Shown piece by piece: positions 39,636-47,785 of a DNA stretch of 64,000 nt. A program made the position numbers and the translations under genes. Where the stretch lies: contig JABHUE010000063.1 in NCBI GenBank assembly GCA_018672825.1, forward strand, positions 1 to 64,000, read 5' to 3'. Source of the DNA: Pseudomonadota bacterium (GTDB lineage: Bacteria; Pseudomonadota; Gammaproteobacteria; Arenicellales; UBA868). The notes beneath the pieces are model-generated. The model did no database searches. It worked only from the letters and a program-made list of their open reading frames with translations, and was not told the DNA's origin. Every line of letters begins with the position of its first letter. Within the stretch, counting starts at the first letter, position 1.

Positions 39636-41183
39636 CTACACCGTCGCGCCACTTTGCGGATTCGTTCTTTTTTGCCCGCTCTGAAGCTTGTTAAGGCCGT
39701 TTACATACGCCTTCACCGAGGCGACGACAATATCCGTGTCTGCTCCCTGACCATTAACAACCCGATCCCCCTCTTGTAGTCGAACGCTTACCTCGCCCTG
39801 GGAATCAGAACCCGCGGTGATGGCATTCACTGAATATAAAAGAAGAATTCGGTCACCGGGAACAATCATTTCGACCGCTTTAAATGCAGCATCCACCAGT
39901 CCATCACCTGTCGCATGGGCGTGCAGGTTTTTACCGGAAGATTCAATCATGAGATCGGCAGTTGGTATCGCACCCGTTTCTGAAAATATTTTTAAACTGA
40001 CATACTTAAGTGATTCAACCCCGCTCCCGAAATCGCCTTCTCCCGCAAGCACTTGAAGGTCGTCGTCAAAAATTTCATGCTTTTTGTCCGCCAGCTCTTT
40101 AAATCGCTGAAACGCCTCACTCAAATCAGCATCATTTTCGAACTCAATATTTAGAGCTAACATCCGCTCCCGAAAAGCATTTCGTCCCGAATGCTTGCCC
40201 AACACAATTTGGTTCGCCGCCCAACCCACATCCTCCGCGCGCATGATCTCATAGGTGTCGCGCTGCTTCAGAACGCCATCCTGATGAATTCCAGCCTCAT
40301 GGGCGAAAGCGTTTGCGCCCACAATCGCTTTGTTCGGTTGCACAGGAAACCCGGTAATACTGGAGACCAGGCGACTTGCTGTCAAAATTTGCGTTGAATC
40401 AAGACGGGTGTCGCATGTAAAGACATCCTGACGAGTCCTGACCGCCATGACGATTTCCTCAAGTGACGCGTTTCCCGCGCGCTCGCCCAGTCCGTTGATC
40501 GTGCACTCCACCTGGCGCGCACCGCTTTGGACCGCAGCCAATGAATTCGCAACTGCGACACCGAGGTCGTTATGACAGTGAACTGAAAAAATGGCCTGAT
40601 CGGCGTTAGGTATTCGGTCTAGTAATCGCGCAAACATTTCGCCAAATTGATTGGGCATCGTGTAACCCACCGTATCCGGAACATTGATCGTACGCGCGCC
40701 AGCCGCGATCACAGCCTCAAATATCCGACACAGAAAATCTTCGTCCGATCGCCCTGCATCCTCCGCTGAGAACTCAACATCGTCAACGAGATTGCGAGCC
40801 TGCGTCACAGCAGAAACCGCCCTCTCAAGCACTTCATCTGGACTCATACGGAGTTTTGCCTTCATATGAATCGGTGAAGTCGCAATAAAGGTGTGGATTC
40901 TTCCGGCATTCGCTTTCCTAATTGCTTCCCCGGCCCGCGCCACATCAGATGGATTCGCTCTTGCAAGGCCACAAATTCGGCTATCAGCGACCTCAGCGGA
41001 CACCATCTCGACCGCTTCAAAATCACCTACGCTAGCCGCTGGAAAACCCGCCTCAATTACATCAACGCGAAGTTTTTCGAGTTGACGAGCAATACGAATT
41101 TTTTCCTGAGCAGTCATGGAGGCTCCAGGACTCTGCTCGCCGTCGCGAAGCGTTGTATCAAAAATTATTAAATGATCAGACAT
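39636..41183 (-). CDS. leuA: 2-isopropylmalate synthase
   Basis: [52 protein letters not shown]. Confidence 0.98.
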
Positions 41184-41270
41184 TATTTATCCCCTAATGA
41201 GCAACAACTATAGCTAAAGCAACAGATTCGAATTTGAATCAGCCGCCATATTTTTTTGAGAAGTTATTTT

Positions 41271-41387
41271 TTAGGAAAGAGATAGCGCCGGCAGGCGCAG
41301 TAGCGCCAGGATAGCCAGCACGAGAAGCCGCGACGGGATTGCATCCAAATTTGACGTCCGGAAAGCCATTTGATTACGCGAGATCAT
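41271..41387 (-). CDS. Candidate Leu-rich leader peptide (38 aa) of a leuA attenuator
   Basis: MISRNQMAFRTSNLDAIPSRLLVLAILALLRLPALSLS*; 9 Leu, 1 Ile and 1 Val in the last 18 residues; overlaps alternative GC hairpins; upstream of leuA. Confidence 0.65.
   Translation of the reverse strand: MISRNQMAFRTSNLDAIPSRLLVLAILALLRLPALSLS
41285..41307 (-). promoter_or_regulatory. Mutually exclusive hairpins of candidate leuA attenuator
   Basis: Minus-strand GGCGC-TACT-GCGCC-TGCC-GGCGC: segment 2 can pair with 1 or 3; followed by pyrimidine-rich TATCTCTTTCC. Confidence 0.5.
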
Positions 41388-41393
41388 CACCCC

Positions 41394-41422
41394 AGTATAC
41401 CGTTATCGTCGCTTTCCAGCAA
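41394..41422 (-). promoter_or_regulatory. Candidate sigma70 promoter for leuA leader
   Basis: TTGCTG (41417-41422) - 17 nt - TATACT (41394-41399) on minus strand. Confidence 0.6.
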
Positions 41423-46258: not shown

Positions 46259-46323
46259 TAGCGAACCTCAATTAAAATTAGGTAAGAAAAATCTTAGGAA
46301 AAAACGAGAAATCCAGACGCGTA

Positions 46324-46353
46324 AGTATAAACAGTACAAGGGTAGCCTGTAAA
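46324..46353 (-). promoter_or_regulatory. Candidate ilvIHC promoter
   Basis: TTTACA (46348-46353) - 18 nt - TATACT (46324-46329) on minus strand. Confidence 0.5.
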
Positions 46354-46354
46354 T

Positions 46355-47785
46355 TCAACGCCGACGCCATTCACAGGTTCCGTCCGGCCGATCCTCAATC
46401 AGAACATTCAACGCCTCAAGCTCCTGGCGAATCGCATCGGCTCGATCAAAATCACGAGACAATCGCGCCGCTTGCCGTTGCTGCACCAAGGACTCAATGA
46501 GACTCGAATCTCCCTCAGGGCTCAAGGAATAATTCGAGCCAGAGATTCCGAGGAAAGCTGCCGGATTTAGATAAAGCAGGCCCAAAATATCAGCCAGGCG
46601 CTTCAATTCGGCGCCGTACGCTGCCGCCAATGAACTTTTCCCCTGGTCAATTGCTCGATTTATCTCTTTCGCAATATCGAAAAGCACGGCAATTGCCGAT
46701 GGGGTATTAAAGTCGTCATCCAGCGCCCGATCAAATGCCAGAGAAAACTGATCATTAATGAGTAGCGTCGTCGGTAAATCTCCAGTCACAGACTTTTGTA
46801 ATGCGGAGTACAGTCGTTCTAGCCCGGAGCGAGCCTGATCAAGGCCGCTATCAGAAAAATTAAGCGGGCTCCGGTAATGACTGAGGAGCATAAGAAACCT
46901 AACCACTTCACCCGCTCTTTCCGGACTTTGATCATTTTTGAGTATCTCTCGGATAGTAAAAAAATTACCTAATGACTTCGACATCTTTTCATGATCGATC
47001 TGAACGAAACCGTTATGCATCCAAAAATTGACAAACTTTTTTCCTGTCGCGCCCTCCGTCTGAGCGATCTCATTTTCGTGATGCGGAAAACGCAAATCCA
47101 TTCCACCACCATGAATATCAAAACTATCCCCTAAACATCGGGTCGACATCGCCGAACACTCTATATGCCATCCCGGTCGTCCATCACCCCAAGGAGACGG
47201 CCAGGCCGGTTCCCCGGCTTTCGCCGACTTCCAGAGAACAAAATCAAGCGGGTCATCCTTCGCCATGTCTTTATCAATTCGCGCACCGGATAACAATTCA
47301 TCAATCGAGCGGCCAGAGAGCAAACCGTATCCTGGAAACTGTCGAACACGAAAGAAAACGTCACCGTTTTTTCCTTGATAAGCAAGGTCTCGTGCCTGCA
47401 GAGTTTCAATCATCGAGATAATTTCTGTAATGTGTCCGGTTGCTCTCGGCTCCTCATCAGGCGGCATCACGTTGAGTACTGCCTCATCCTCATGCATTGC
47501 GGAAATAAATCTTTCGGTTAAAGAATCAAGTGGTTCGCCTATTTCAGTCGCACGGGCAATGATCTTGTCGTCGATATCTGTGATATTTCTGATGTATTTA
47601 ACATCGAAACCCTTGGCTCTAAGGACCCGCACAACCATATCGAAAACAACAAGGACGCGAGCGTGGCCAATATGACAAAAATCATATACTGTCATTCCAC
47701 ACACATATATGCCGACTTTTCCGGGCTCTTTGGGTTCAAAAAGCTCTTTATCTCGGCTTAAACTATTGTAAATTTGAATAGACAT
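46355..47785 (-). CDS. cysS: Cysteinyl-tRNA synthetase
   Basis: [41 protein letters not shown]; start set at internal MSIQIYN. Confidence 0.98.

Follow-up and report, generated by a model that had tools for sequence, protein, structure and literature searches.

A conserved leucine-codon leader element, probably leaderless, upstream of leuA in Gammaproteobacteria

The 64,000-nucleotide stretch of DNA analysed here (the window) carries, directly upstream of leuA, a short leucine-rich ORF whose last leucine codon is overlapped by a small RNA hairpin, P1. Judged by comparison with related genomes, this leader element is real and conserved beyond chance. The reading that we favour, at a probability of roughly 0.7, is that of a leuA leader element that responds to leucine by way of the ribosome and has a leaderless leader peptide. 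Leucine-responsive control of leuA by a leader peptide is, as a part of this reading, very probable.

Organization of the locus

The minus strand of the window has the gene order cysS-ilvB-ilvN-ilvC-psd-pssA-leader-leuA (Table 1). The identities of the ilv genes, psd, pssA and leuA are backed by NCBIfam, while cysS is a putative assignment read from its ORF rather than from an NCBIfam match. A separate 30-residue ORF, with a TATACT inside it, is located at the cysS-ilvB junction (46278-46370, minus strand).

Table 1. Features of the leuA leader region in the window
Feature	Position	Strand	Basis
pssA	42268-41435	-	NCBIfam
Putative promoter: TTGCTG -35 (41422-41417), 17-nt spacer, TATACT -10 (41399-41394)	41394..41422	-	Sequence
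Predicted transcription start, the A of the leader ATG	41387	-	6-nt discriminator and spacing in relatives
38-codon ORF of the leader peptide, rich in Leu towards its end	41271..41387	-	Sequence and Leu gradient over 64 loci
GGCGC, lineage-specific, can pair with 41298-41294 (1:2 hairpin)	41303..41307	-	Window, L003 and L004 only
Leu-Leu pair (CTA CTG), conserved, at the P1 mouth	41298..41303	-	Alignment of relatives
Conserved hairpin P1, GCGCC-TGCC-GGCGC	41285..41298	-	Pairing and compensatory change
G-free 37-nt tract 3' of P1, weak rut-like candidate in the window	41248..41284	-	Composition
AGGGG Shine-Dalgarno of leuA	41191..41195	-	Sequence
leuA, 2-isopropylmalate synthase (regulated gene)	39636..41183	-	NCBIfam NF002087 equivalog, E 7e-257

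The leader peptide and its leucine codons

The leader peptide of the window, MISRNQMAFRTSNLDAIPSRLLVLAILALLRLPALSLS followed by a stop codon, has nine Leu residues in its last 18 codons together with one Ile and one Val. This 38-codon Leu-rich ORF had been described at 41387-41271 in an earlier reading of the sequence without database searches (the sequence-only reading), and both its sequence and its position hold. The arrangement is that of a short ORF rich in codons for the regulated amino acid, Leu, upstream of a biosynthetic gene, leuA. Over 64 related loci the share of Leu climbs from about 0.1 to 0.67 across the eight codons preceding a Leu-Leu pair; the pair itself was demanded by the finder, and the gradient was counted before it only. 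The first codon of the pair varies synonymously among relatives (CTG, CTA, CTT, CTC or TTG).

The peptides of the wider order mostly end in LLLRR and a stop, with the TAG within the hairpin loop. Within the window's genus, by contrast, the reading frame passes through P1 and stops 4-13 nt beyond it, and the extra residues are varied. The GGCGC nucleotides are conserved both where they are translated and where the stop precedes them, a pattern indicative of selection acting at this position on the RNA and not on the peptide.

Promoter and predicted leaderless start

The TTGCTG-N17-TATACT promoter proposed in the sequence-only reading is present in the window. Its -35 element is weak, and a strict promoter scan found no promoter. 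Downstream of TATACT, the 6-nt discriminator GGGGTG (41393-41388) leads directly to the ATG, and in relatives TATACT or a close -10 hexamer keeps a constant spacing to the leader ATG. After removal of loci more than 80% identical, 33 of the 64 non-redundant loci have a -10 hexamer 6 nt (23 loci) or 7 nt (ten loci) before an in-frame start, against a background of about 0-4 loci at most other spacings. Acidiferrobacterales-like loci with TAAGCT, also at 6 nt, were left out of this count. When ATGs 6-7 nt after a -10 hexamer were collected with no requirement on frame, 32 of 34 were in frame with the Leu codons (P = 1.4e-13, a value that ignores remaining relatedness), and all 32 ORFs are open as far as the hairpin. 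The suggestion, made from the window alone, that the leader is translated from a leaderless transcript is therefore supported by both the spacing and the frame, and it is highly likely on this comparative evidence that the leader ORF starts at the first base of the transcript. The longer 5' UTR of L020-L023, L026 and L132 indicates that a leaderless start is not universal.

A second, smaller accumulation of -10-like hexamers lies 27 nt (nine loci) and 28 nt (six loci) before in-frame starts. In the alphaproteobacterium Ensifer sp. LC163 (L257), a leaderless-looking, Leu-rich ORF ending in ASLLLLGLTRGCRVR and a stop is found upstream of leuA, its ATG 7 nt after a TATAGG.

Hairpin P1

Three GC segments are present in the window (GGCGC at 41307-41303, GCGCC at 41298-41294 and GGCGC at 41289-41285, followed by TATCTCTTTCC), and the sequence-only reading had proposed that they form alternative 1:2 and 2:3 hairpins. 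The two hairpins fold at approximately -10.2 and -9.5 kcal/mol, the 1:2 hairpin can be extended by pairing of 41321-41314 with 41292-41285, and the 210-nt leader folds better than its shuffles (z = -2.7). The conserved hairpin is 2:3 (P1), which overlaps the last Leu codon; the first segment, the partner needed for 1:2, was seen in no locus other than the window and L003 and L004, the relatives closest to it. The segments and the 2:3 hairpin of that proposal hold, and the 1:2 alternative is confined to these three loci.

In the alignment of the type ending in Leu-Leu-Arg, 98.6% of P1 cells are paired, but only one pair shows compensatory change, with both sides changed in three sequences. The 105 loci of the class and order sets contain 15 different five-pair P1 helices (GCGCC/GGCGC, CTGCC/GGCAG, GCCGC/GCGGC, GCCCT/AGGGC and others), and the Leu run is followed by Arg in 65 of them and by Pro in 39. 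This variety suggests that the RNA stem is kept, rather than the Arg or Pro residue. The pairs of P1 and of the second hairpin, P2, were counted by script, since a joint alignment of both misplaced P1 across types and gave no model. An RNA structure maintained by compensatory change thus lies over the regulatory codons. Aligning relatives for conserved Leu codons and compensatory hairpin changes had been put forward as a check on the original proposal; both are found, in relatives across the order and the class.

Conservation across the order, the class and beyond

Fifty relatives within the order were picked by leuA homology alone, and 46 of them have, upstream of leuA, a leader ORF ending in Leu-Leu-Arg over UGCGCC-N4-GGCGCA; the motif was not found in the other four (L024, L027, L028 and L121). 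A search of 85,462 species genomes with the 20-mer CTGCTGCGCCNNTAGGCGCA gave 54 matches, about 37 of them directly upstream of leuA at 100-235 nt. These leuA-linked matches belong to Arenicellales, Muproteobacteria/Acidiferrobacterales-like MAGs, Steroidobacteraceae-like MAGs and three Phycisphaerae. In the Steroidobacteraceae-like MAGs the element precedes the other type of leuA, which is 26% identical. The Phycisphaerae (Planctomycetota; L083, L093 and L100, of which L083 is a chromosome-level assembly) have an LLLR(R/L)-stop hairpin element before leuA, and these copies may reflect transfer or convergence. A match in Phytomonospora (L105) lies at the end of a larger gene and was rejected as chance, the probable explanation also for the remaining matches without leuA.

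For the class, 80 leuA upstream regions from nearly all different gammaproteobacterial families were chosen by leuA homology only and searched with a generic finder (two Leu codons, a hairpin starting in or just after them, a stop within 36 nt and an open ORF with a start). The same anatomy was recovered in 43 of the 80, compared with a mean of 0.6 in mononucleotide shuffles and one in the reverse complement, and the finder gave no match in the remaining 37 genomes. The finder requires a helix, so that the pairing rate is built in and the evidence is the contrast with the shuffles. The usual class form is Leu-Leu-Pro-stop over CUGCC-N4-GGCAG. A covariance model run on a sample of Pseudomonadota gave no leuA-linked match outside Gammaproteobacteria. 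Neither the window nor the 31 related loci searched had a relevant Rfam match at gathering or relaxed thresholds (only tRNAs, in L109).

The second hairpin, P2

Many relatives have a second hairpin, P2, of the form CCUGGCGAGG...ACGCA, found in 31 of the 80 class loci (a few of these matches being doubtful) and 13 loci of the order set. P2 is not in the window. The pair outside P2 varies (CG, GC, UA or AU), P2 is usually followed by ACGC or ACGU, and the P2 loop and the ACGCA are near-invariant in sequence. In 204 genomes the pattern CCTGGCGAGGN{3,9}ACGCA was found 29 times, with two control matches, and is almost specific to leuA, since 23 of the 29 lie upstream of this gene. Three of the others were inspected; one is an orphan leader copy and two are seemingly within coding sequence. 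A GACG loop together with ACGU in two related loci is suggestive of a loop-to-ACGY pseudoknot, which would be kept by this pair of changes.

An orphan second leuA-type leader with both P1 and P2 is present in L270 (G145:C96; its peptide ends RQLLPLRLPR-stop), with no leuA seen just downstream, and could be contamination or a moved copy. In four Steroidobacteraceae-like MAGs (L069, L072, L085 and L094), before the other leuA type, a different second hairpin, GCGCY-AWCGGUC-GGCGC, is followed by GACCG, whose complementarity to the hairpin loop makes it a candidate pseudoknot.

The region between P1 and leuA

The first 20 nt after P1 contain only 4-8% G across the 64 loci, and C exceeds G over the following 35 nt in all 64; the C-G excess here is above that of the region preceding the promoter (P = 1e-10, with relatedness ignored). 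The tract of the window is A-rich, and its best (C-G)/60 is only 0.10, a weak rut-like bubble. A rho gene is present in the window's genome. The intrinsic-terminator step of the sequence-only reading did not survive comparison. A U-tract intrinsic terminator between leader and leuA was found in only two of the 64 loci, the scan of the window gave one site against 0.6 in shuffles, which is chance level, and that site is weak (stem of 5, tail TATCTCTTTC); the TATCTCTTTCC after the third GC segment is not a U-tract terminator. The near-absence of intrinsic terminators and the excess of C over G favour Rho, and a Rho-dependent output is a tentative assignment that may well be wrong.

Proposed mechanism and alternatives

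In the mechanism that we propose, transcription would begin at the A of the leader ATG, and a ribosome would load on the leaderless transcript and translate the 38 codons, the last of them rich in Leu. With ample Leu-tRNA the ribosome would reach the stop and leave, P1 would fold over the last Leu codon, and transcription of leuA would mostly be aborted in the downstream leader, likeliest by Rho acting on ribosome-free, G-poor RNA. With scarce Leu-tRNA the ribosome would stall at the Leu codons and mask the 5' arm of P1; as P1 could then not form, the leader would refold and leuA would be transcribed. Four elements of this scheme are inferences: that leucine is what is sensed, that stalling senses it, that the output is at the level of transcription and not of translation, and that Rho takes part.

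The output could instead be translational, with no premature termination. In that case the leader ribosome, together with P1 and any P2, would change how the start region of leuA folds or how accessible it is, as has been proposed for the actinobacterial LEU element. The near-absence of intrinsic terminators (2/64), the conserved P2 with its possible pseudoknot in many relatives, and a Phytomonospora leuA leader (L256) in which the Leu run is complementary to the Shine-Dalgarno all speak for such control. We nevertheless consider it unlikely, since P1 is a local structure some 100-225 nt away from leuA, the window lacks P2, and no base pairing between the Leu run and the leuA Shine-Dalgarno is seen in the window's genus (as judged by eye, without scoring). 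The classical attenuator with an intrinsic terminator, as first proposed for this locus, is very improbable. Its Leu-codon leader peptide and leaderless start stand; its mutually exclusive hairpins and its terminator do not. The three GC segments do permit alternative hairpins and the window has one weak terminator-like site, but the site is at chance level, U-tract terminators are found at 2/64 loci, the first segment is limited to the window and two close relatives, and P1 is conserved where C-rich rather than U-rich RNA comes next.

Two further explanations each have only a slim chance of being correct. The ribosome might be stalled through nascent-chain arrest, as in TnaC, by the last residues of the peptide themselves (Leu-Leu-Arg or Leu-Leu-Pro, then the stop), and the Leu-Leu-Pro-stop and Leu-Leu-Arg-Arg-stop ends are indeed strikingly uniform across families. 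Against this, the Arg or Pro after Leu-Leu switches together with compensatory stem changes, and the window's genus has moved the stop past P1, with its residues varied and its nucleotides kept. Alternatively, P1 and P2 might bind a regulatory protein or an sRNA, the ORF merely keeping the RNA translated or open; the near-invariant P2 loop and ACGCA would fit, as would the helicase-domain partner suggested for the actinobacterial LEU element (PMC1262725), but the Leu-codon gradient, the coherence of the frame and the fixed spacing from the -10 to the ATG would be left unexplained.

Comparison with known systems

The closest parallels to the leucine-responsive element favoured here are actinobacterial. 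In the LEU element, a leuA leader peptide has a Leu run that pairs with the leuA Shine-Dalgarno, and a pseudoknot has been proposed (PMC1262725); LeuL1 of Streptomyces lividans is leaderless and without a typical Rho-independent terminator (PMC8079986). The element described here resembles them in its Leu-run leader peptide before leuA, its probably leaderless start (as in S. lividans), its lack of a typical Rho-independent terminator and, in relatives with P2, a possible further RNA structure. It differs in that a local hairpin lies on the last Leu codon and that most relatives have a peptide ending in LL-R-R or LL-P. The enzyme encoded by leuA also belongs to the other type, being about 26% identical to that of Steroidobacteraceae. 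As cited in PMC1262725, a leuA leader mutation in Streptomyces coelicolor did not have the effect expected of classical attenuation (Craster 1999), which counts against our model.

The leuL attenuator of enterobacteria and Shewanella (Rfam Leu leader; PMC2659441) likewise has a Leu-codon leader before leuA and presumed sensing by the ribosome. It relies on a competing antiterminator and an intrinsic terminator, whereas the conserved features here include neither and match no Rfam family. Transcripts that start at or near the leader-peptide AUG are also known from the leaderless trpL of Sinorhizobium meliloti, part of a transcription attenuator (PMC7298713), and, as cited in PMC13236596, from the leaderless polycysteine short ORFs of mycobacteria (Canestrari 2020). 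Those concern other amino acids and other bacterial groups. In the tna operon of E. coli, the TnaC leader ORF is followed by Rho-dependent termination after its stop (also cited in PMC1262725), and TnaC stalls before the stop codon. Termination past the stop is the likeness, here proposed only; tna is catabolic and induced by free Trp through nascent-chain arrest, which is the opposite logic.

Our search of the open literature found no description of the gammaproteobacterial element, and its novelty is provisional: attenuation by a leader peptide is already known, and what is added is a real and conserved leader-peptide element of leuA. More speculatively, the window may carry a variant of an undescribed gammaproteobacterial leuA RNA element, with a leaderless peptide, the stop-codon hairpin P1 and, elsewhere, a P2 with a GGCG loop that forms a pseudoknot with an ACGC further downstream; in such an element, leucine would be sensed by a ribosome-controlled, terminator-free switch that arose in parallel with the actinobacterial LEU element or shares its origin.

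Biological significance

Textbook leucine attenuation is that of E. coli leuL, with its intrinsic terminator. Many Gammaproteobacteria may regulate leuA otherwise, by a leaderless mini-mRNA and a small hairpin on its Leu codons, with no intrinsic terminator. The element accounts for an unannotated ORF before leuA in many genomes, and it is a natural and conserved system in which leaderless translation and attenuation without a terminator could be studied. For the cell, it probably provides a means to switch leuA on when leucine is short.
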